Shown: one piece after another, positions 26,100-46,766 of the stretch
Numbering within the stretch: the first letter of the stretch is position 1
Layout of the letters: every line of letters begins with the position of its first letter
From: Polytrichum commune
Taxonomy: Eukaryota; Streptophyta; Polytrichopsida; Polytrichales; Polytrichaceae
NCBI GenBank assembly: GCA_950295325.1
Contig: OX485804.1
Coordinates: 4,712,001-4,776,000, forward strand
Length of the DNA stretch: 64,000 nucleotides
Reading direction: 5' to 3'
Notes under the pieces: model-generated
What the model saw: the letters and a program-made list of their open reading frames with translations, nothing else
What the model was told of the DNA's origin: nothing
Databases searched by the model: none
Program-made: the position numbers and the translations under genes

Positions 26100-28106
26100 C
26101 GCACGCCAGGTAAAAAAGTTGCGGTGATCGGTCTTCCAAGTTCCCACTCTCCAGCTAAAGGAAGGCCTACCACCGCGGCTGCTCTACTACCGTGCCTGGC
26201 TCTCGCTCCTAAGGGTTGCTACTTCAAACCCTCGCATACGGACAGGACCGATCGCTCCCCATCTCGCGCGCTTTCGTCTACGTCGAAGTCAGTAAGGTAT
26301 GCTTTCTGCCATCGCCGTTGCTGTGTGGATTCTCACATACTCATCGTCATCCTCTTCTGTGCATTTGCATTGTTTCTTTTCTCATTTTAATGCCGCAGGC
26401 AGGAAATGAGACTAAGTAGGGTTTGAACTCCTTCTCTGTTTCTCTTCTCTTCGTATCTCTCTTTTCAAAGTCTTGGTTTCATCTTTTCCCGAAGCTTCGT
26501 TAGAGTCTGGCCATCTCGAGTGAATGCACCGCGGATTATTTGTACGGCAGAGTGATGGGGAGCACTTGTTTCGTGGCAGGTTAGGTAGTGCTTAAACGGG
26601 AAATGATTAGGGTTTGAAGTGCCTCTTTCTCTTTGTCGTTGTCTTCAATTGTATTCGGCTTAATCTTATTCAGAGGTTTGCTAGGGTAATACATGTCGTT
26701 TGAGTTCTGCGTGTGTTGTGTTAGAGCAAAGTTCTCATGTCTTCATCAAGTTCATTCATAGAAGTGAGGCTTAGGGTTTATCCTGTTCATCTGAAAAAGA
26801 GGTTCTGTGTTCTGTAGATTTCTCAATTTCCTAAGACTTAAATTATTGTTTCAAGTGACATTATAATGCACATCCCGACACTAACAACCTTATAAGTGGC
26901 ATTTGAAGTTGTATTTAAGGTGCACAAAGGGAATTGTTCGACTGCAATTTAGATGCTTTTTCTTTGTGGTCGTCATTCGGTTCATCGTTTCTAGAGTTTT
27001 GCTAGGGTAGTACATGTGGTTTGAGTTCTGTACGTCTTGTTTGAAAGAAAAGTTCTCCTGTGGAATCTGTCAAGTGCATGCATAAAAGCGGGGCTTAGGG
27101 TTCGTCCTGTTTATGTAAATGAGATTGACGTGTAGGAGTTCTGTGTCCAGTAAAACAATTATCTCGTCCTTGTAATTTTCTTAATTATCTAAGAGTTAGA
27201 ATGAATGTTTTCAAGTGACATTTCAGTGCACATCCCAGCACTACATGTCAACAAATGGCATCGAAAGTCACACTTAATGTGTACAGAGTAAATCGAGCCA
27301 CTGCAGTTTAGATGCTTGACACTCATGGTGACATTTACTTGGAAGTGAAGCATTGTGGCTGTACATCCCATCAGCTCATGGTAGATGTTAGGTTGACTTT
27401 CCCAATATCAGGTGTGAATGGAGTGTTCTAATTACTCAGGGCTAGGATGATAGTCACGTTGGTGGTACTGCAGTTTTGTAGTTGGAAGTTCTTCCTATAG
27501 AGTTTCCTGCCTTTTTTGACAGTGTGAGCTATGGGAGGAGAATGTTGCATGGTGTATTTTTAGAACCCTGTTTATTGCACTGTTCTGTTTGATATTTTTT
27601 GTACCTGTTTTGAATGGGGTGATTGTTTCTACTTCAAGAAAGCAAGCTCTTGAGGGATAATGCTGGTAGCTCCAGTAATCTCATTTTTGAATGACGTGTA
27701 TTATAATACACTTGAATTATCAAATGTCTGCTTTTACAAAGGGTATTGAGCAAGTGAAATTGCAACTGGGGTGAGACTGGGGTATGCAATAAGGTTAGAT
27801 TCAGAATACAATCTGCAATAGAAAGAAGTGCCAAAGACTGCTATTGGAAATTTCATAGTGATGTGGAAATTTCATAGTTTTTCTGGGTACAGTTTTTTGA
27901 GTTTGTCCTGTTATTAGGAAGGTTCTTTGGTGCAGAGGGTTTCGAAGAACTTCACTCCACTTTTGACATGTTAGTACTGAATTGTTTATGATGCTGTTGC
28001 AGATGATCGTTGACCAGGTTTCTCAGTGAAGCAGCAGTTGGTTTTGTTGTGGCTTTCTATCTCTTTGGCCACCTTCCAGTTGTAATAGCAGCAGGTAAGT
28101 ATCTGC
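26100..28106 (+). promoter_or_regulatory. likely promoter, 5' leader and leader intron of the FCP1-like gene
   Basis: A GC-richer stretch at about 26,100-26,295 ends in AAG/GTATGC, a good plant donor. CTGTTGCAG/ATGATC at about 28,002 is a good acceptor 105 bases before the ATG. The 1.7-kb span between them has stops in all frames. Within it, two diverged tandem units of about 320-360 bp share TTGCTAGGGTA(A/G)TACATGT, GGCTTAGGGTT and TCAAGTGACATT..(A/C)..GCACATCCC. The transcription start is not known. Confidence 0.5.
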
Positions 28107-29945
28107 ATGATGAAGGCAGTTGTGGCAGCACCAGCTGCCAAGAAGCTACTGGTGCTGGATGTGAATGGGTTGCTTGTGGCCACATATCACCACAAGCATG
28201 GTAAGCTGCCAGCTGGACCCCATCATGCAATGTTGGGAAACTTTTATGTTTACAAGCGCCCTCTTTGTGAAGAATTTCTAAAATTCTGTTTTGAGAATTT
28301 TGTTGTTGGGATTTGGAGCTCTGCAAGAGAACACAATGTGAATCTCTTTGTGGATTTTATATTCAAGGACCTCAAGCCAGCTCTTGCTTTCTCTTGGCAC
28401 CAGCAACATTGCACAACTACCAAAGTGAAGCATCCTGACAATGAGCGTAAACCAATTTTTTTGAAGGAGCTTTCAAAACTTTGGGCCAACTTGGACCCAG
28501 AGCAGTTTGGTCCATCCAATTCCTTGTTGGTGGATGATTCACCATACAAGGCGCTGAAGAATCCACCTAACACAGCTATTTTCCCTCGGTCTTATACAGC
28601 AGATGAAGCAGATGACAATTTTCTTGGGGTTCTTCAAAAGTACCTTGAGGGACTTCGAGACTCACTAGATGTGCAGAAGTATGTGAGTGAGAATCCTATA
28701 GGAGAGCCCAGCATCACATCTGAGAGTCCTTTATGGAGCATTTTCTCTTCAATTGTGGGTGGTGATTCCCCAACGACTCAGGTTGTCCAGGCTATCGAAG
28801 ATGCAAAAGGATATGTTCAGGAAGTTCAAGAGGATGTTAAGCAACGTTTTGGGAAAACTACAGAATACAGAGATGTGGAGCATGCAGGAAAAAGAGGACA
28901 CTTTTCACCTACATTATATTGTGAACACTCAAAGCGGAGTAGAGTTCAGGGTTTACCAGAGACAGCTGATCTGACGTTGGAGCATGAAGGAAATACCTTT
29001 TCTGATCAGTTGCAAGATGACGATCAGTCAAAAAACGGATATCACTCGTGGGGACACAGGGGATGGATACGAGAAAGAGAAAGAGGAAGAGAAAGAGAAA
29101 GGTCAAGATCGCCACAGAGGCACCAGGATTACAGGGACAGGATTGATGGAGATTGTGACAGGTACATTCCTGAGTTTGTGGTTGCTCCTTCCAGCAGCTA
29201 CTCGTGGGAATGCAATTTAAGCAGGAATGGTTCATCTAGAGGAAGTTATCACAGGCGTGGGACTTCATCAGAGGCCACAAGAAACCGAAATCCTTTTGTG
29301 GGAGAACAATACAGAGATCAGAAGGGGTATGGGGCTCAGGGGGAAAGGCAGTTCGAACCCACTAGATTCAATGATAGGGACTTGCAACCTCATATTCTGC
29401 CCTTAACAGGACAACCTATATATGGAATCGCATCACAACCCAAATCACATATAGGGCATTCGGGACAGACAGAACAAGCTTATTCTTGTCACCCTAGATA
29501 TCAGGGGGAGAGGCAGTTCAATGATGGGTCTTCTGGGACGAGACCAGACTATGATAGGAGGTGGCAAGGTCCTGCATATTCTAGTCACAATAGATATCAG
29601 GGGGAGAGGCAGTTCAATGATGGGTCTTCTGGGACGAGACCAGACTATGATAGGAGGTGGCAAGAACCTGCATTCTCTGGTCACAATAGATATCAGGGGG
29701 AGAGGCAGTTCAACAATGGGTCTTCTGGGACGAGACCAGACTATGATAGGAGGTGGCAAGAACCTGCATTCTCTGGTCACAATAGATATGAGGGGGAGAG
29801 GCAGTTCAACGATGGGTCTTCTTGGACAAGACCAGACTACGATATGAGGTGGCAAGAACCTGCATATTCTGGCAAAAGGACAGTTTATGATCCAAGATGG
29901 AATAGACGTCCCGTGAGTGAGTATGTAGCTCCTCTCCATACATGA
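28107..29945 (+). CDS. FCP1/NIF-like HAD phosphatase-domain protein with C-terminal repeats
   Basis: A 612-residue frame. Residues 12-190 form an FCP1 homology (NIF, HAD-superfamily) domain. The motif I region reads LVLDVNGLLV, so the nucleophile Asp18 is present but the second Asp of DxDx(T/V) is Asn20. WSSA follows at 70-73, and LVDDSPYKAL at 141-150 is the C-terminal Asp-Asp motif. The DxNG form is usual for one plant clade of this family and makes phosphatase activity uncertain. Residues about 315-335 are an Arg/Glu then RSRSP-type run, as in splicing-related proteins. Residues about 464-590 are a tandem 32-residue repeat (see 29,496). Initiation at Met1 or Met2 cannot be distinguished. 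Location is probably nuclear, judging by the RS/RE content (inference). Confidence 0.8.
   Translation: MMKAVVAAPAAKKLLVLDVNGLLVATYHHKHGKLPAGPHHAMLGNFYVYKRPLCEEFLKFCFENFVVGIWSSAREHNVNLFVDFIFKDLKPALAFSWHQQHCTTTKVKHPDNERKPIFLKELSKLWANLDPEQFGPSNSLLVDDSPYKALKNPPNTAIFPRSYTADEADDNFLGVLQKYLEGLRDSLDVQKYVSENPIGEPSITSESPLWSIFSSIVGGDSPTTQVVQAIEDAKGYVQEVQEDVKQRFGKTTEYRDVEHAGKRGHFSPTLYCEHSKRSRVQGLPETADLTLEHEGNTFSDQLQDDDQSKNGYHSWGHRGWIRERERGRERERSRSPQRHQDYRDRIDGDCDRYIPEFVVAPSSSYSWECNLSRNGSSRGSYHRRGTSSEATRNRNPFVGEQYRDQKGYGAQGERQFEPTRFNDRDLQPHILPLTGQPIYGIASQPKSHIGHSGQTEQAYSCHPRYQGERQFNDGSSGTRPDYDRRWQGPAYSSHNRYQGERQFNDGSSGTRPDYDRRWQEPAFSGHNRYQGERQFNNGSSGTRPDYDRRWQEPAFSGHNRYEGERQFNDGSSWTRPDYDMRWQEPAYSGKRTVYDPRWNRRPVSEYVAPLHT
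29496..29879 (+). repeat. 96-bp in-frame tandem repeat in the FCP1-like gene
   Basis: Four units begin with AGATATCAGGGGGAGAGGCA-like sequence at 29,496, 29,592, 29,688 and 29,784, a period of exactly 96 bp (32 codons). The encoded unit is rich in Arg, Gln, Gly, Tyr and Asp, with RYQGERQFNDGSSGTRPDYD as its core. The last unit shows the most changes. A shorter QGERQF block upstream (residues about 411-416) may be the ancestral unit. The long antisense frame here is only a by-product of the 3-base periodicity. Confidence 0.92.
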
Positions 29946-37152: not shown

Positions 37153-37537
37153 AAGCACTACAACAAAACACGTCTTTTATTCCCGCACCCACTTCACTGC
37201 ATGTCTTTTATTACCATAAACAGTAAACGGTTGAAATTGTTGAAATCCACCTTTACTGTCCTTATGTCTGAGTTTATTTCAGGGTGTCATGGTAGTCATG
37301 TTGGACAAGAATGTGCTTGGGAACGAACTTGAGAACGTGTTCGGGAACGTCAGAGAACATTCATTACTACGGATAGTAAAGTGGTCGATTTGACCGTGTC
37401 ACTTCAAAATGTAATGTGTTTTTGGGTTTTCTATAGAATGCTCACAAAAGAACGGCCCATTTATTTTTGCTAACATATAATGAAATATACATATTCGACC
37501 ACAATATGAGATTACCCCATACTCAAGATATTATAAT

Positions 37538-38426
37538 TTAATCTAGAGGAGCATGACCATCTTCTTCAAGTGCAGCTTCATCCTCGTCTTCAGAAGACGG
37601 TTCATGGTCGTTTGTGTTCAAAGCTGCGAGCACCTCATCACTGCTTAGAGCCACAACCTCATCTAATATTGGGTCAGTTGGGATTGCATCATTCTCTAAT
37701 GATGTTGGTTTCAATCCACAATGGTCTCCCATATTGCCTAAAGATAGGCATCCTATGTCTGGTATAGAATCTTTTGTAGAAATGACTCTTGCTCCCCTTG
37801 GCTCTTTTCGTAGAACCACCTTCCATCCATGATTGTTCAAATCGTCCGCAAAGAATACCTGCTCGACGTGTAGTGGAAATGCAAAAGATTCGGCTGATAG
37901 TGGCACTAATCTATCAAAATTCACTAGGCTAAAGCCATAATCGTCTCGCTTCATGGTAGCATTATGCCCAACCATGTTTGCCATCACCCAATTGCAATAC
38001 AACACAACCAGTTCATACCTACTATAGTCCACGGCCAATATTTCTTCCACCCATCCCACATACTCCAAGTTTGCCGCCTTCAAGCCCCTGTCATGTACAC
38101 TGGACCGGCAATGTTGGGAGAATGTGGCGGCCACGCCAAAATCAACCGTGATCAAAGTTCCTTCCGCACTACGCACGCGGATATGATTTCCGAAGGCATA
38201 CATGGAGCGGTATGATGTTGCTTGGCTGGAGGGTGGAAGAGACAATACCAACACATCTTCTTCAATCGCCTCTCCCGCCTCTTTGGCGCGAGAAACAACC
38301 GATTTGAACCACTTGGGGAACCCTTCATCTCGAATGTCTTCAGGATAAACAATCCGGCCATTTTGTTTTCTCCTCCGATATTCTGCACGTTCCAGTTTGC
38401 GTTGTGCCATACTTGCAGTGTGACGC
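37538..38426 (-). CDS. CACTA transposase, exon 5 (DUF4216)
   Basis: Terminal exon, entered at a TTATTGTACAG acceptor just above 38,426. Its first base completes the Glu codon begun in exon 4. The exon then runs open to a stop at 37,538. It carries the DUF4216 domain found after DUF4218 in plant CACTA transposases: a YVGWVEEILAVDY-like segment, VLYCNWV, the DDYGFSLVNFDRL block and VEQVFFADDLNNHGWKVV, followed by an acidic tail. The role of DUF4216 is not established. The reading frame is intact here. Confidence 0.85.
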
Positions 38427-38805
38427 CTGTACAATAAAACATTTCTGTGATGCCTTACATGTTTGCGAAAAACACTAACTCAGTGCGTACATAAGGGGCT
38501 TGTACAGTTACTACGTAGAGTTATGATTCTCATTCGTTATTGCCAGAGAATACTAGAGGCAGTAATGTTTTGTAATATAACTTTGTCATGTTACTGCATA
38601 GAGTTTAAAATTTAACTATTGTGATATGACCTGTACAGTTACTACGTACAGTTATGGATATACTGAGTTTTTAATCGAGATTACTAGAGGCAGTGATCTT
38701 CTTGTAAGTTGACTTTGTGTAGTGAGGTGCAAATGTTTGTAAGTGCAAGAATTTCACAATTGCATACTGATGCCTGTAAAATAAAACAATTTGTTCGTGT
38801 CTTAC
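38427..38805 (-). repeat. transposase intron 4 with a 131-bp duplication
   Basis: GTAAGA donor at 38,805 and TACAG acceptor at 38,427. Two units spaced by about 131 bp contain GTACAGTTACTACGTA and ACTAGAGGCAGT. Similar TACTACGTACAGTTA and ACTAGTGGCAGTGA blocks occur near the other end of the element (about 46,055 and 46,473). Confidence 0.6.
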
Positions 38806-39704
38806 TCTCTCCACGGCTCTAAGGGAGCCACATTATTGACCACAAATTCGTGTATCCAGTCGCGTATCTTTGGTATTAGTATCCTTGGTCGCCCAACACC
38901 TTCGAGGATTTCGTCGTTCATTGTAAGGTCCTCCTTATCGTCCCATACCCTGCGACTTGTAACGGTATATGATTGCATGTACTCTGTGCAAAAGCCAAGC
39001 GCTTCATCTATGGCGTATCCTTCAGCCATACTAGCTTCGGGTCTTGCGCGATTCCGAACGTAGCCCTTCAATGTTTTCAGATACCTTTCCATAGGATACA
39101 TCCAACGGACATGTACTGGCCCACAAATATCTAGTTCCTCCACCAAGTGCACTAAAAGGTGCGTCATGACGTCGAAAAATGCCGGTGGAAACTCTTTTTC
39201 GATCATGCACAATGTGATGGCCGTATCCTCTCGCAGGTCGCTCATTTCTGATGGGTTGATGGTTTTGGTGCACAATCGTTTGAATATCCGGCTCAATCTT
39301 ATTATACATATACGAACCTCCTTTCTCATGATCGTGCGTACACAGAGAGGCAAGACTTGCTGCATAAGGACATGATAATCATGCGATTTCAATCCTTTCA
39401 GACTTCCATCCACGTGGACTTTTTTTTTCAATTGGCCAACATAGTGAGTAGGAGTTTTCAGTTGCCGCACAACATCCACAAATACCTCATTTTCTTTCTT
39501 TGTGAGCACATACGGGGCTTGCGGCAATGTCAAGCTTCCTTGTTTTTTCCCCGGTATGGGCCACAAATGCGGCCTTATGTTGGCTTCTTTCAAGTCCATG
39601 CGAACCTTTAGTGTATCCTTCTCTCCAAATAGGAATTTCATGAGACTCTCTGTTATGTTTTTCTCGCAATGCATTACATCCAGCGTGTTGCGTATAAGAA
39701 GGCC
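38806..39704 (-). CDS. CACTA transposase, exon 4 (end of TNP2 core, DUF4218)
   Basis: The acceptor GTGAAACAG/GGC lies at 39,704 and the donor GA/GTAAGA at 38,806, giving an 899-bp exon with phase 0 in and phase 2 out. It opens with LLIRNTLDVMHCEKN, the conserved TNP2 segment with an acidic residue of the catalytic core, directly continuing the PYWK that ends exon 3. DUF4218 follows, with KSHDYHVLMQQVLPL, the FPPAFFDVMTHLLVHL block and the GPVHVRWMYPMERYLKTLKG block. The frame is intact. Confidence 0.88.
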
Positions 39705-40589
39705 CTGTTTCACAAAAAAATTACTGGTTAAGTGGATTGCATTCTGTTCCATACCATATAACTGAATCATAGTAAGTGCAACAACAATTGTTGCACTATA
39801 TGACTATACCACTACTTAGTTCAGTAATAGAGTATGAACATGACTACAACTAGTCATGTTCATTCACTTGTTATAGATATGTATTACTTCCCATATTCTA
39901 TTACTTCCTATAGGACATGACTTAAACCACTACTTAGTTAAGTAATGGGGTAAGGAGTATGAACATGACTACAACTAGTCATGTTCAATTACTTCAATTA
40001 GTCATGTTCATTCACTTGTTATAGACATGTATTACTTCCCATAGTCTATTACTTCCCATAGGACATGACTTAAACCACTACTTAGTTAAGTAATGGGGTA
40101 AGGAGTATGAACATGATTACAACTAGTCATGTTCAATTACTTCAATTAGTCATGTTCATTCACTTGTTATAGACATATATTACTTCCCATAGTCTATTAC
40201 TTCCCATAGGACATGACTTAAACCACTACTTAGTTAAGTAATGGGGTAAGGAGTATGAACATGACTACAACTAGTCATGTTCAATTACTTCAATTAGTCA
40301 TGTTCATTCACTTGTTATAGACATGTATTACTTCCCATAGTCTATTACTTCCCATAGGACATGACTTAAACCATTACTTAGTTAAGTAATGGGGTAAGGA
40401 GTATGAACATGACTACAACTAGTCATGTTCATTCACTTATAATAGACATGTAATACTTCCTATAGTTCCGGTGTACATTTACTTCGACTTTAATACAATC
40501 AAATTACCGACTTCGTAAACTTCTGATGTTCAAATAAAACCCATAACATATGCTCATTAATTCGGGTAAAACGAGTTTTCGGTATGCAC
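39705..40589 (-). repeat. transposase intron 3 with a 148-bp tandem array
   Basis: The intron is bounded by GTGCAT (donor) and GTGAAACAG (acceptor). The block GGACATGACTTAAACCA starts at 39,913, 40,061, 40,209 and 40,357, a period of exactly 148 bp. With a shorter first unit lacking about 24 bp, the array covers about 39,806-40,450 (some 4.4 copies). Each unit includes ACTAGTCATGTTCA twice in complete units. Later copies are almost identical, so the array expanded recently. Confidence 0.92.
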
Positions 40590-42182
40590 CTTCCAATATG
40601 GTAACGCATAAAGTGCGTTCTTCCTCTTCACTCCATGCTCGTGGATTGGATCCAATTTGTCTCCTTCCTTATTGGCCGGCGACTCTAGCAACCAATCTTC
40701 TCTTTATTTAGCAAACCGCAAAATATCGCGTGACAACAATGTCTGCGGGGGATCTCGGCGTTCCTCTCCTCCATCAAAACTACTTTTTAATCGTCTGTAA
40801 GGATGGTTCATTGTCAAATAACGACGATGACTGAGATAAACATTTTTGCCCAATGACTTGGACCTCCTCGTTGCCACATTTGGCCCACACGGAGGACAAC
40901 CCCGGTACCCCTTCGTGACTTGCCCGGCAAGCAATCCATATGCCGGGAAGTCATGAATGCTCCACATAAGAATCGCCCGGAGCTTAAAATTTGGGTTCGT
41001 ATTGTATGTATCCTCTACACTTTCATAGGCCTTTTCCAAAATGGATCCGTCCTTTGCAATCACCCCTTCCCACAATCTTTGTAGTTCCTCCACCAATGGT
41101 GCTAAGTACACATGTATGTTTTCCTCTTTCACGGATTCTTTGCCGGGAATGATTAGGGATAGCATCACAAAAAACCGCTTGGTGACCAACCAAGGTGGCA
41201 AGTTGTAGTTTAGCAATACAACTGGCCATGTAGAGTGACTTAGAGATTGGTTAGAGAAAGGGTTGACACCATCCAACGCTAGTGCCAAACGTAGATTCCG
41301 GGGCTCCTTCGCAAACTCCGGCCACCTTGCGTCCACGTGTTTCCATGCCTTTGAGTCCACAATCGATCTTATGGTGGAATCCTTGCTTTTCCCCTCAATA
41401 TGCCACGTCATAAGCTCGGCTAGTCGTTTGCAACGGTACATTCGGAGCAACCGAGGTATAAGGGGGAAGTGTCGCAACACTTTCACTGGAATGCTATCAG
41501 AATTCGGAACATACCGAGATTCCTTGCATTCCGGACACACTTTTTCGTCCTTGAGCTCGTTCCTAAATAAGCAATGGCCATTCTTGCACGCATGGATAGT
41601 ATTGTAGCTCAAACCCAACTTCTTCACCAATCTTTTGGCCTCGTAGTGTGATTGAGGACAAGTGTTTTCTCTTGGGAGTAGATCATGTTTTAGCAGTTTC
41701 AACAACTCGTCGACACATGCGTTGGAAACTCCAAAAATGGTGCATACATTCAGGATCATGAGAACTGCTTGTAACCGGTTGGTAGGGCTGTTCTTGAATA
41801 GTGGGGTGTTCGCTTCTTTCAATAAGTTCTCCGTGTTGTCGGCAATGTCGTCATTGACCTCATCACCTACATGGGGATGTGTATTGGCCAATTCATCCAA
41901 ATCTTCGTGAGTTCCCTGAAGTTCTTCCTCAATTCCCTCTTCATTTGGAGTGGTATTTGTATATCCGGGCAAACCATCAAACCTCTCGAAACATTCGTGG
42001 ACCATCCGGATTACCTCCACTTCCTCGTTATTATCCCGCAACACTTCTGCATTTTCGTGTGCAACAATGTCTTCGGCTACTCCTATTTCCATATCATTAT
42101 TTCCTTGTGCCATCATGTACCTCCCTCCTTGGGTCGCCATACATATGTCTTTTTGGGCAATATAAATGTCATTGTTGACCTC
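40590..42182 (-). pseudogene. CACTA transposase, exon 3 (TNP2 / Transposase_21 catalytic core) with a premature stop
   Basis: The exon starts after a pyrimidine-rich CACATGCAG acceptor, phase 0, and ends PYWK/GTGCAT. It carries hallmarks of the TNP2 family: HYEAKRLVKKLGL, HACKNGHCLF, the VCPECKESRY zinc knuckle, LRHFPLIPRLLRMYRCKRLAE, LALDGVNPFSNQ with the first catalytic Asp, STWPVVLLNYNLPPW, the HDFPAYGLLAGQVTKGYRG segment with the second Asp, and a CPPC pair. An acidic leader of about 115 residues precedes the core. A single TAA at 40,704-40,706 interrupts the frame; the same frame then stays open for 38 codons to the donor. Read-through is not expected, so the copy is probably disabled. 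An ATG at 42,197 just upstream could start a separate gene instead. Confidence 0.9.
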
Positions 42183-42668
42183 CTGCATGTGCACCATGAA
42201 GAAGAAAACAATACATATTCTCTTAGTAACCTTATGTATTTACAAACATTTGAGAATCTATAATTGATGACCATCCCAAAGGGAAAAAACAATCTTCTGT
42301 ACAAGCACGGTAAATTGGACAGGACCTGTAGCATTCCTGGAGTGTAAGTAGATCATTACTATATACAGTAATAGTAGGGTTGTGGCAGCTTAAAAGCTAT
42401 GCACCATTACTATGCACTACACCTATGCATCATTACTATTAACAATAACACGTTACTATGAACTATTACTAGTAACAGTAGCACATTACTATGAAGCATT
42501 ACTATGCAGTATTACTATGAAAAGTAGCACATTACTATACACAGTTGAGATTAATATATGACACCCCATCACAACTCTTAGCTGCTCCAAGTACAAGACA
42601 TAGTGGTGAAATTGCTGATGCATTAAATTCGAAAAATGTCTCAACAAAATCGCGGGAATTTAATTCAC
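42183..42668 (-). other. intron or promoter between the SET exon and TNP2 exon, CATTACTAT repeats
   Basis: At about 42,350-42,545 many copies of (C)A(T/C)TACTAT and AGTAGCACATTACTAT-type words are clustered. The SET frame ends with a TAA at 42,660-42,662. A possible but weak donor (TCC/GTGAAT at 42,668) would splice in phase to exon 3. If it is not used, this stretch is the 3' end of one gene and the 5' region of the next. Confidence 0.5.
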
Positions 42669-43256
42669 GGAGTAATGCGCATACAGCTCTTCTCCTGCCT
42701 CTATATCCCTTGCTGCAATTGTCATAACAAAACCCCACTCGTTCTCCTTCCAAGGTTTGGGAAGCATACTATACTCCCACACTACATTGCCAATTTCCTC
42801 TCGACCTATGGAGCTGTTGATAAATCCAGCAACATTGCCCTTCTCCACACTCCCGTCTATGTAAATATCTTCCTCAGCTTTAAGGACATAACTCTTGAAT
42901 CTTGGCACAAGACTTTTCATTTTTCTATATTCTGACTTGCTATATTGGGGACCTACAAATGGCAAGAGAATATCTCCTTCTTTTGCGGAATCCATGGCAA
43001 ACAAACCCCAGCCCATAAATGAAAATTTTGAAATTTTCACCACCCAGTGTCTTTGGTGAAAACTGAAAGTGGTGAACTTCGGTATGGGCCCATTGCACCA
43101 TTGCCCATCGAAAGCTCCACGCCTCCAATTCATCAATTTCAGCTCCTCCTTAGTGTAATTTCTCTTTTGGGGGACATGTTTTGGGGTTGTGGACTCTTTA
43201 AAAAACAATTGAATGGCCACCTTGGCCGCGGCCTCAACAAAGGGTCGTCTTTGTGC
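42660..43256 (-). CDS. SET-domain (lysine methyltransferase-like) exon inside the CACTA element
   Basis: Acceptor TTCGTGTAG/GCACAA at 43,256, phase 0; 198 codons then TAA. SET motifs appear in order: FMGWGLFA (GxG loop of the cofactor pocket), SYVLKAEEDIYIDG, GNVAGFINSS (the RFINHS-like pseudoknot strand, Asn kept but NH changed to NS), NVVWEY, then ARDIEAGEELYAHY with the closing Tyr. A basic N-terminal part (about 55 residues) precedes it. There are no pre-SET or post-SET cysteine clusters. SET proteins usually methylate lysines of histones or other proteins with S-adenosylmethionine; activity here is unproven. An intron of 89 bp joins it in frame to the zinc-finger exon. Codon use and frame are intact, which suggests selection or recent origin. 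GTG at 43,220 is a Val codon, not a start. Confidence 0.8.
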   Translation of the reverse strand, partial: AQRRPFVEAAAKVAIQLFFKESTTPKHVPQKRNYTKEELKLMNWRRGAFDGQWCNGPIPKFTTFSFHQRHWVVKISKFSFMGWGLFAMDSAKEGDILLPFVGPQYSKSEYRKMKSLVPRFKSYVLKAEEDIYIDGSVEKGNVAGFINSSIGREEIGNVVWEYSMLPKPWKENEWGFVMTIAARDIEAGEELYAHYSVN

Positions 43257-43345
43257 CTACACGAAGGGAATCAATGTTACGTCATAATTCAATTGCCTCG
43301 TTTACAATACAATATAATTCGAAAATGACTATATATTTTACTCAC

Positions 43346-43543
43346 CAATATGGATTTCGTAAATGCGGAGTCACGTTTGTATCGACGAAGATGTTTTCGT
43401 ATGGTTGCTCTTGACAATACCTTCCCCCCTGCACACATACTACAAGGGCAACGATACTTTACCAATCTTTTTTTGTCCGCTTCTTTTTCTTCCAAATCCC
43501 ATAGCTCCAAGTCCAACATTGCGCGCCTCGATGTTGCATCCAT
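43346..43543 (-). CDS. CACTA exon 1, transposase-associated zinc-finger-like domain
   Basis: Starts MDATSRRAML at 43,543. It includes RCPCSMCAGGKVLSRATIRK followed by HLRRYKRD, the CPCxxC...HL pattern of the transposase-associated domain that normally lies N-terminal to TNP2 in plant CACTA proteins. It ends after 66 codons at a strong donor (ATATTG/GTGAGT), phase 0. Both the SET exon (43,256) and the TNP2 exon (42,182) begin in phase 0, so either can follow in frame. This domain probably binds DNA or mediates contacts; no experiment is implied. Confidence 0.75.
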
Positions 43544-44600
43544 TTTGATTCTGCATCAAAGTAAATGAATTATAGTAGAAAGAATGTGACCTTCAATTAG
43601 CGGGTTAAAGATGTTGGCACAATTCAAAAATCAAATTCACCTGCAACATCCTTTGCACCACATTTGTTGTAATTGGTCTGGAAATCTTAAATTATGGGTT
43701 CCTTTAACTTAAAGTTCACGTTTTTACTTCATGTAGTAAATGACATTACTTCACATTGTCACATTACTATGACATTACTTCATGGAGTAAATAACATTAC
43801 TTCACATAGTGACATTACTTCACAGTTGAAAGGGCAATTATAGAACATGTGAATCCTAAATCAACACATTAAATCTTATTATATTTAGTGTACATTGCAT
43901 TCTAGCCATCAACGTGGAATTGTAGTCGCACATTCTATTTCAGTACAAATGTTATTTCATGTTCGTATAGAGGACTTCATGACCTTTCCGTGGACAACAA
44001 GAACACGGATTTTGATGGACAAATGTATTTTTGAAAGCAAAAAACCGAGACTATGTTTGAAAATTTCCCAAAAAAAAAATGAAAGGTTTCAGATTCCAGC
44101 GAACAACGTAGAATTGCGGTCGCACATTCTCTTTCAGTACAAATACTATTTCATATCCATATAGAGGACTTCATTACCTATCCGTGGACGCCAAGAACAT
44201 AATTTTTGAACTTCATACGAATTTCTAAGAGCCAAAAAACCGGTACTATGTCTTAAAATTTCCAAAAAAAGTGAAAATGGCCAAGTTCCACACTTTTGCA
44301 TTCAATTAAAAAATATCACTGTAACTTGAAATTTAAAATATAATCAACATCAATGAACAGTAGACGACATTCTATGATATATTATGGTTTTAAATTTATC
44401 AATGTATGGTCCATGTTATGTGTCGGGTTCAAATAAAAAAATTGTATCAAAAATGGCTCATAAACAATGTAGAAAACGGGAAAACGGAAGAGGGGACCCA
44501 GGACGAAGCGTATTCGACTCAGCGAAGGACAGAAACTGACGCTGGAGGCCGGTGCACTGTTACCTAAAGGTAGCATTTTTATTGTGATCTATGTTTATGC
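43544..44600. other. bidirectional intergenic region of the CACTA element
   Basis: Lies between the divergent genes. About 43,905-44,285 is a tandem duplication of period 194 bp (AACGTGGAATTG / AACGTAGAATTG, TCGCACATTCT, TTTCAGTACAAAT, ATAGAGGACTTCAT). At 43,735-43,820 there are several ACATTACTTCA words. Likely holds the promoters of both genes. Confidence 0.55.
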
Positions 44601-44812
44601 AGCTAGTAAAGTCTAACAACTGCAGTGAGTAAAGCCTAACTGCACCTAGTAAAGTCTAACAATTGCACCTAGTAAAGTCTAACACCTGCAGCTAGTAAAG
44701 TCTAACTGCAACTAGTAAAGTCTAGCTGCAACTAGTAAAGTCTTGCTGCAACTAGTAAAGTCTAACTGGAACTAGAGAACCCTTACATAACTATAGCTAG
44801 TAAAGTCTAAAT
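44601..44812. repeat. short tandem array CTAGTAAAGTCTAAC
   Basis: About nine copies of CTAGTAAAGTCTAAC spaced 20-23 bp, separated by TGCA(A/C)-type linkers, with a few point changes. In CACTA elements such arrays of short motifs are binding sites for the element's TNPA-type protein. This one is close to the DUF8039 gene rather than at the extreme ends. Confidence 0.85.
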
Positions 44813-45101
44813 GTATCCAGTATGAGATAATGCTCATTTTAACTGTCTCTATTTACTACCAGCACTCAATGAGGCTTACTACCATAAGTCAGATGAAAGC
44901 CAATTCATGTGAACTCATTTTCCATTGAACGATCTGTGAATGTAATGCAATTGTGAACTTTACCCGGACATTACTGAAACTCAACGGGTTCATTTGTCTA
45001 ACTCTCCACTCTCCCGGACCATATTGCACATTGCAGAGAAATCCAGGGGCAGCCCATTAAAAAAGGGCTCGAAGAAAACGGACAAAGAAGGAGAGAAAGA
45101 A

Positions 45102-45598
45102 ATGGCGGATAAGCGTAGGGGAGACAAACCTCCCCTTGGCACGAAGGCTCCAAAGAAGACCCACCCTATTCATGATTTGGTGAGCATTCGGTCCAACTAC
45201 TTAAGACTAGTAGCTAAGTGCAAGTAAGCACATTAATTCAAGTTTATACTACATTATGGATTTAAGAAGCAATTTGTTTATTTAATTTGGCTGAAATAAT
45301 CGTGGCATTTGTGCAGACTAAGGGGGACGAGGTTTACTTGTGTGGGTATGATTTGGAGGAGTCGAAGGCGAAGTTCGTTGGGAAGGGTGTTATTCAGCAT
45401 ATAGCAGGTGGGATGTTGCACGGGAAGGTGATTGGCAATGACTATGTATCATTGGCCATCACGGAGTCACTTGAAGACGACTATCCTTTGCTTGAACCTC
45501 TCAGTGGAGACGACCCTCCAGTGACTACTATTGGCAAAGCGAAGGGCCATTACATTCTTTGGTCAAGCGAATGTGTAAAGCCATGTGCGGCTACGTGA
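45102..45598 (+). CDS. DUF8039-like second protein of the CACTA element (two exons)
   Basis: Exon 1 from ATG 45,102 (MADKRRGDKPP...) to 45,179, intron 45,180-45,316 (TTG/GTGAGC to TTTGTGCAG), exon 2 45,317-45,598. Both boundaries are phase 0. Exon 2 gives DEVYLCGYDLEESKAKFVGK, then HIAGGMLHGKVIGNDYVSLA and ending in a KAKGHYILWSSECVKP block. This pattern is that of DUF8039 in plant CACTA/Ptta-type second proteins: substrate-like Cys, G.G, LHG, V.V, then A.G..I.W. The protein is short (about 120 residues) and basic at its N terminus. An in-frame ATG at 44,994 could extend it, and upstream exons are possible. It may play the TNPA-like role of binding element repeats (inference). It is divergent from the transposase, unlike En/Spm. 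Confidence 0.65.
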
Positions 45599-46763
45599 GT
45601 GTGGAGTGGATTTGTAGACCTAGGTTGATTTGCAGACATTTGGAGTTCAGTGTTTAATATTGTTAGAACCAAATTGTGAAACATTCATGACACAATATTG
45701 GATAAATATGATTTGGTTTTTAGCAATGGCTACATTTGGTAATGGCTACATTTGGCAATGGCAACATTTGGTACATGTCACAAATTTATGACTATGTTGA
45801 GTTAGCCCCATGTTACTAGTTGCTGTAAATGCGCACAGTTGCATCCTAATCACGGCACTTAGCGCAGTTGATATTCACTGTAGTACCAGTAATATACATT
45901 AAAGACATGTAAAAACCACATAACCTCACAACGAACACAAAATACTAGAGTTTGTTGTCTACATTACGTTACATAGTAATATAGATATCACGACTTTAAG
46001 TAACAAATATATGCCATCTAAATATGTATTCACTCTTGGTAGTCACAGACACTTACTACGTACAGTTACACAGACACTTGGCAAGGACATGAATACTTCA
46101 CTGGTAGTAATACACAAAAAAGACATCCGTGAACCACATGACCTAACAACGTAGGCCATAGACCACTGCTTGAGGTAAACATCACTCCAGCCAGTGAAGT
46201 TCACATGACGACGTGGAGTAAGAAATTATGCAGTTGTTGTATGTATTTACTACCAAAAGTCAAAGATGCTAACTACGCAACGTTATTCACTACCCACTTG
46301 GTTGTCTGCGATTACTGGAATAAGTAATGTGTGAAAATTAATTCAATTAATCTTAGCCACGTGGTTACATATTTGTTTCAACCACGTTGTTATGGTTCAC
46401 TAGTAATTTGGAATGTATGTATACGTATTTTACTTTGTATTACTCTGTGTAGTGAAGTAAAAAAACCCGACTATGACTAGTGGCAGTGACATTATATCTC
46501 TTCGATGAGTTATATTGACGTGTGTCGTATCTTACTTATATTGCCAAAACATAGTGAAATAGGACATGACTCTATGAAGTAAAGCACGCGGAGCTAGTCC
46601 AACTTCACTGCCATTGGGAACGTATCCATTGGGAACATCCTGTCCGATATTCCTTTACTGCTTGTCCGGAGCGACTGGTCGTTTTCCACGTTAGTAAAGT
46701 CTGGATTTTTTCACTCGTAGGAGTTAAAAAACCCAGTTGTAAAAGACGTGTTTTGTAGTAGTG
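45599..46763. other. right subterminal region of the CACTA element
   Basis: Non-coding, with scattered TTACTAC, TACGTACAGTTAC and TTCACTACC words on both strands. The terminal 24 bp form the right inverted repeat, ending CACTAC on the minus strand. Confidence 0.7.
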
Positions 46764-46766
46764 AAG

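Follow-up and report, generated by a model that had tools for sequence, protein, structure and literature searches.

A recurrent SET-domain exon between the TA and tnp2 exons of a CACTA transposon family in Polytrichum commune

Why does an open frame for a SET methyltransferase-like domain lie between two exons of a transposase gene? The question is raised by a window of 64,000 nucleotides of the Polytrichum commune genome (contig OX485804.1, positions 4,712,001 to 4,776,000). Here the original prediction had placed an intact 198-codon SET frame, on the same strand as the transposase exons around it, inside an element bounded by matching terminal inverted repeats (TIRs) and a target duplication. 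This description is borne out by our analysis (Table 1). The frame is uninterrupted over its 198 aa and the stop codon that follows. In the HMM search that had been proposed as a check, it matches PF00856 at 41.3 bits (cut-off 22.4; E 2.2e-10) over profile positions 1–104 of 105. A Transpos_assoc-like (TA) exon lies on one side of it and a tnp2 exon on the other, all on the minus strand, and the element is flanked by the same trinucleotide at both ends.

The element carries the features of CACTA transposons. CACT(A)-type TIRs and a 3-bp target site duplication (TSD) are present both here and in a second element, L003, for which both ends were found with ATG on each side. Moreover, a tnp2-type transposase is encoded (PF02992, E 1.3e-70, in the minus-strand frame 40704–42239), together with DUF4218 and DUF4216. 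The region of the TA exon is covered by a Transpos_assoc match (PF13963, 43289–43555, minus strand, E 8e-4) whose 20 bits fall under the Pfam cut-off of 27.7. Both element ends recur in the genome: the 200-bp end on the transposase 3′ side and the 300-bp other end each returned at least 40 scored matches (40 scored of 120 candidates in either case). The second-gene frame at 45266–45598 returned at least 150 (150 scored of 278 candidates).

Table 1. Features of the CACTA element; positions are those of the 64,000-nucleotide window.
Feature	Position	Strand	Basis and remarks
CACTA element	37156-46763		9,608 bp; 24-nt TIRs; TSD AAG
TSD AAG	37153-37155 and 46764-46766	none	Read from flank letters
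TIR, transposase 3′ side	37156-37179	none	24 nt; 96% complementary to 46740-46763
Frame with DUF4216	37538-38479	-	Pfam, E 7e-8
Frame with DUF4218	38802-39803	-	Pfam, E 1.1e-38
tnp2 exon (Transposase_21)	40704-42182	-	Predicted start 42182 after phase-0 CAG acceptor; 3′ limit is the open-frame end, not a mapped donor
SET exon, 198 aa plus own stop	42660-43256	-	Pfam PF00856, genome copies, codon models
Predicted intron, GTGAGT...GTGTAG	43257-43345	-	Donor and acceptor read from sequence
TA exon, Transpos_assoc-like, CPCxxC	43346-43543	-	Proposed shared N-terminus; 66 aa from first Met; ends SIL/GTGAGT, phase 0
Second, divergent gene, two frames	44946-45598	+	No Pfam match
TIR, other end	46740-46763	none	Pairs with 37156-37179
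Non-coding DNA rich in TAGTAA/TTACTA and AGTAAT	within 37156-46763	none	Motif counts against shuffles

L003 measures about 18.5 kb end to end against about 9.6 kb for the window copy, which may have lost several kb around its second gene (43556–46763). The elements also look mosaic when 5′ ends, SET identity and the second gene are compared. The window 5′ end (46464–46763) is 99–100% identical to 5′ ends lying 9–23 kb from three copies of SET group A2 (L017, L019 and L020; groups are defined below), whose SET proteins are just 77–78% identical to that of the window. L002 has a SET protein 98% identical to that of the window, yet its second gene, upstream of SET, is divergent, at a 52% match. 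Tandem repeats occur between the DUF4218 and tnp2 frames (39843–40438, four 148-bp copies with internal inverted repeats) and at 29481–29872, where four 96-bp repeats fall within a 618-aa frame (28089–29945) that is probably a host gene.

The SET exon across the genome

PF00856 matches number 119 in the 408-Mb genome, and frames of 196–203 aa account for about half. With the window SET protein as query we recovered at least 150 scored matches (207 candidates), which merge into 137 places, some of them decayed or weak; 41 SET loci were fetched and 60 could be paired with a scored tnp2 row. By identity to the window protein the SET copies were divided into groups A1 (90–100%), A2 (76–83%), B (mostly 53–59%) and C (roughly 42–54%). 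Comparison was made with 85 tnp2 rows (84 scored among 739 candidates), so that all counts are lower bounds. A SET match lies upstream in 61 of the 85; the nearest one is on the same strand in all 61 cases and within 2 kb in 60. The hit order TA, SET, tnp2 is found in 38 of the 41 fetched loci; the exceptions are L018, where TA gave no hit, L016, where tnp2 gave none, and L041, whose stretch has hits to neither. Thus SET is a recurrent exon in this CACTA family and not a one-off capture. One-off or recent gene capture was rejected on this same-strand recurrence and on the signs of purifying selection described below.

The expectation that other copies of the family would carry the exon is therefore upheld for these rows, but it does not extend to every relative, since related clades lack SET and some copies appear to be deletion derivatives. 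The six SET copies of at least 90% identity (the window, L002–L005 and L016) each have a full-length 3′ element end downstream, 0.7 to 18 kb off. Sixteen such full-length ends of at least 91% identity are found among the matches listed, and the remaining ten have no SET within 25 kb among those matches; these ten look like deletion derivatives.

At the level of groups the SET tree and the tnp2 tree are congruent, although the deep placement of B and C2 is weak. Within A2 there is a conflict over L022, which groups with L017/L020 in the SET tree (95) and with L007/L012 in the tnp2 tree (78), possibly through exchange between elements. In the tnp2 tree, the SET-less loci L042–L045 are nested among SET-bearing ones, adjoining C2 (95 and 100; trees unrooted), and a search of the fetched stretches of these four loci for a SET remnant returned none (E above 3). 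Such nesting suggests loss of SET, and with the long-branched L047 taken as outgroup, loss would be simpler than repeated gain. Given these remnant-free examples and the 24 of 85 tnp2 rows with no SET match within 12 kb upstream, SET is not required in every lineage.

A far more divergent CACTA lineage, L041/L047, shows the same predicted order of TA, SET and tnp2, with a TA-like exon (E 0.0014, under the cut-off), a SET frame of 326 aa and tnp2-type frames. Two of its SET-bearing copies, at C3:52944831-52945808 and C5:1795593-1796570, are identical across all 326 residues, suggesting that this lineage has recently moved or duplicated.

Predicted products and selection

The predicted exon borders are widely shared. 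In 38 of the 41 fetched loci the first aligned SET residue comes immediately after AG; L032 reads TAT there, L040 has its TAG five codons further upstream and L041 is not alignable at this point. Similarly, a phase-0 GT donor, mostly SIL/GTRAGT, closes the TA exon in 38 of the 39 SET-bearing loci where TA was hit (L024 is without the GT), and GT stands at the same place in 3/3 SET-less loci with a TA hit. Before tnp2, a phase-0 AG was seen by eye in most A, B and C1 copies and in SET-less relatives; this acceptor was not placed in C2 and is altered in L013. Intact SET frames have stop positions within a few codons of one another. Moreover, between the window and four A2 copies identity is 85–89% in TA, 63–70% in the intron, 80–83% in SET, 45–50% after the SET stop and 77–78% in tnp2. 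The drop past the stop is what a coding exon terminated by a stop codon of its own would show.

The idea that SET is built into the transposase gene thus needs to be divided. SET is indeed a recurrent exon of that gene, but its own stop places it outside a single transposase polypeptide unless further splicing occurs, and a separate TA-SET protein is likelier than a transposase with a SET insert. As the predicted splice sites of TA, SET and tnp2 are all in phase 0, TA could join either SET or tnp2 in frame. Together with the SET stop, this makes it probable that the gene has two products, a TA-tnp2 transposase and a TA-SET protein sharing the transposase N-terminus.

Further splicing would require a donor near the end of the SET frame, and in groups A and C1 a GT is found there which could permit a single TA-SET-tnp2 protein, that is, a transposase with a methyltransferase domain. 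In group A the site is HYS/GTGAAT, which forms a weak donor in phase 0, while the corresponding region of C1 reads GTAAA. However, in group B Leu replaces the Val there, L037 reads CTC/CTAAAC-like sequence without GT, and the frames of groups A, B, C1 and L037 all reach a stop shortly after the donor-like site. We regard such a fusion as improbable.

The SET frame is open in 45 of 68 full-length rows (first 81 of the 150 match rows), and two further full-length rows lower down are interrupted. In codon models (IQ-TREE) omega for SET is 0.32 in group A (19 copies), 0.47 in B (7) and 0.55 in C (6), and omega = 1, tested with a grid search for kappa, is rejected (p 3e-14, 0.0045 and 0.0046 respectively). 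For all 33 copies omega is 0.27, a rough value because dS between groups is saturated. L010 and L041 were left out of these tests, as were frames no longer than 140 aa (L013, L016, L018, L024, L038 and L039), and L037 entered the overall omega only. In group A, tnp2 has a codon-model omega of 0.41 (18 copies, stops set to gaps) against the 0.32 of SET; summed over pairs from 11 matched loci, dN/dS comes to 0.227 in SET and 0.212 in tnp2. The check for dN/dS below 1 set out in the original prediction thus came out in its favour, and the SET exon appears, from these substitution patterns, to be kept by selection.

Capture of gene pieces is possible in CACTA elements, as PMC13317346 indicates, and SET might be such a piece of a host gene, hitch-hiking without function. 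The omega of 0.55 in group C would accord with this, as would the 2 of 14 usable C pairs with pairwise omega of 1 or more, but neutral drift of young copies after insertion would also raise omega in B and C. Open frames are weak evidence in young copies, since 1,134 of 2,000 simulated SET frames stay open after 12 random substitutions; after 100, however, just 54 of 2,000 do. Omega is below 1 in three groups, the splice sites are conserved and the exon occurs in deeply divergent lineages, all of which argues against a passenger. We consider this explanation very improbable.

Putative function of TA-SET

All 20 aligned family members match PF00856 at E of 0.01 or less. The profile built from the 20 matches chains of MLL1 (KMT2A/HRX), EZH2, ASH1L and SET1 type (best E 4e-6), with MLL1 at the top, at scores too close to indicate mark specificity. 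A weak Ntox17 match in 2/20 members and one to LegAS4/AnkI, at 27.8 bits where the cut-off is 550, were both taken as cross-matches. An AlphaFold2 model of the SET exon alone was unusable, with a mean pLDDT of 34.

Both glycines of GWG (G82 and G84), the Asn of NHS (N147) and the Tyr of the GEEL segment (Y195) are invariant in the 20 sequences. In the profile match, Y195 falls opposite the second Tyr of the MLL1 motif YDY, a position that we take to be the C-terminal catalytic tyrosine of SET domains. The canonical motif of SET domains is N-H-x-C. Of the features that mark the SET family, G-x-G and the C-terminal Tyr are present here and N-H-x-C is absent, as the His of the NHS motif is replaced in 35/35 aligned rows (groups A, B, C and L041) by Ser, or by Asn in L037. 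This replacement makes catalysis uncertain, and methyltransferase activity of TA-SET is best called plausible.

TA-SET could instead be inactive as an enzyme and regulate transposition as a DNA- or transposase-binding partner or competitor, with the SET fold as a binding module. The replacement of the His throughout the 35 aligned rows would fit, and a TA exon common to the transposase would suit a competitor. The invariant GWG glycines, Asn and Tyr, the last in register with the MLL1 tyrosine, point the other way, and a whole SET domain kept merely for competition would be less expected. On balance we think this unlikely, though it is the alternative to which we give most weight.

Non-coding DNA of these elements is dense in short motifs. 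In the window element, TAGTAA/TTACTA occurs 34 times in 4,258 nt of non-coding DNA, where 500 Markov shuffles gave a mean of 5.6 and a maximum of 13; outside the element the window has 23 in 54,392 nt. An array of a 20-bp unit (consensus TGCAACTAGTAAAGTCTAAC) at 44598–44775, upstream of the second gene, contributes to this enrichment. The motif differs by group: per kb of non-coding and coding DNA respectively, AGTAAT reaches 5.7 and 0.7 in A, AGTCAT 10.3 and 1.0 in B, and AGTCAA 5.8 and 0.1 in C1, for motifs that were picked by excess after the counts were seen and in copies that are related, not independent, within a group. TAGTCA, the motif of C2, is likewise rarer in exons than in non-coding DNA, and in SET-less elements (3 loci) it stands at 3.2 non-coding against 0.7 coding per kb. 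Because SET-less relatives are also enriched, candidates for the motif-binding protein are the shared TA module, the transposase and the second-gene product, and TA-SET could gain its targeting from any of these.

Taken together, we propose that the SET exon is of old standing in a group of plant CACTA (EnSpm) elements and is maintained there by selection, and that one gene with one N-terminus would give rise to two proteins. TA-tnp2 would be the transposase. TA-SET, of about 264 aa in the window copy, would be a putative lysine methyltransferase, brought by the TA module, or by proteins bound by TA, to the motif arrays that the element carries in its non-coding DNA, where its substrate would be a histone or other chromatin protein. 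The most likely outcome would be that the element stays expressed or accessible for transposition, an effect comparable to VANC anti-silencing. We put the probability of an old selected exon, two proteins and a self-targeted chromatin methyltransferase, taken as a whole, at roughly 0.5. More tentatively, the choice of second exon may decide whether the product is a transposase or a chromatin writer, directed at the element itself, which opens or protects its chromatin. This system would predate the split of several deep CACTA lineages, with motifs and proteins co-evolving by subfamily.

Self-limitation is known in transposons. The same enzyme might accordingly repress the element, or copies that compete with it, through the mark it writes, and so curb damage or copy number; the presence of EZH2 among the profile matches would be in keeping with this. 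The top match is MLL1, although the closeness of the scores applies here too, and selection among copies should favour self-promotion over restraint. A repressive role seems to us unlikely, a little more so than an inactive, binding one.

Few transposons encode their own chromatin-modifying enzymes. If our preferred reading holds, a selection-kept SET exon in a large plant CACTA family would make it possible to test directly whether DNA transposons can escape silencing by writing histone marks on themselves, and TA-SET would be a possible natural sequence-directed methyltransferase.

Comparison with known systems

The original prediction knew of no described CACTA family with a SET exon in its transposase gene, and our literature searches, which covered open-licence PMC papers, likewise showed no plant CACTA/EnSpm family with SET among the papers listed. 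The element shares with plant CACTA/EnSpm transposons its CACT TIRs, 3-bp TSD, tnp2, DUF4218, DUF4216, Transpos_assoc-like N-terminus and second gene; it differs from them in having, between TA and tnp2, an additional conserved exon that encodes SET and carries its own stop. SET and transposase are also combined in SETMAR, but that primate gene is a fusion of a host gene with a single mariner copy and not a mobile family.

SET genes occur in Harbinger (HarbingerS) and MuDR elements of Phytophthora, according to PMC12730594, which cites Kojima and Jurka 2014. These too are DNA transposons encoding a SET histone-methyltransferase-like protein, but they belong to other superfamilies in an oomycete host, and we liken them by that description and not by SET sequence. 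A DNA transposon with SET is thus a known kind, and its plant CACTA form with a SET exon appears to be new. In Kaonashi (KIU) of MULEs, a captured enzyme domain is similarly conserved in a transposon gene; there, as described in PMC13317346, the domain is a Ulp1 protease in another superfamily.

A functional likeness is suggested by the VANC proteins of Arabidopsis VANDAL elements (PMC5735166). VANC21 binds short-motif arrays in VANDAL21 non-coding DNA. In both systems an element-encoded factor is thought to act on element chromatin, and dense short non-coding motifs differ between related elements. VANC, however, comes from MULE elements and has demonstrated anti-silencing activity; for the CACTA family with SET that activity is putative, and we liken the two systems by motif pattern.
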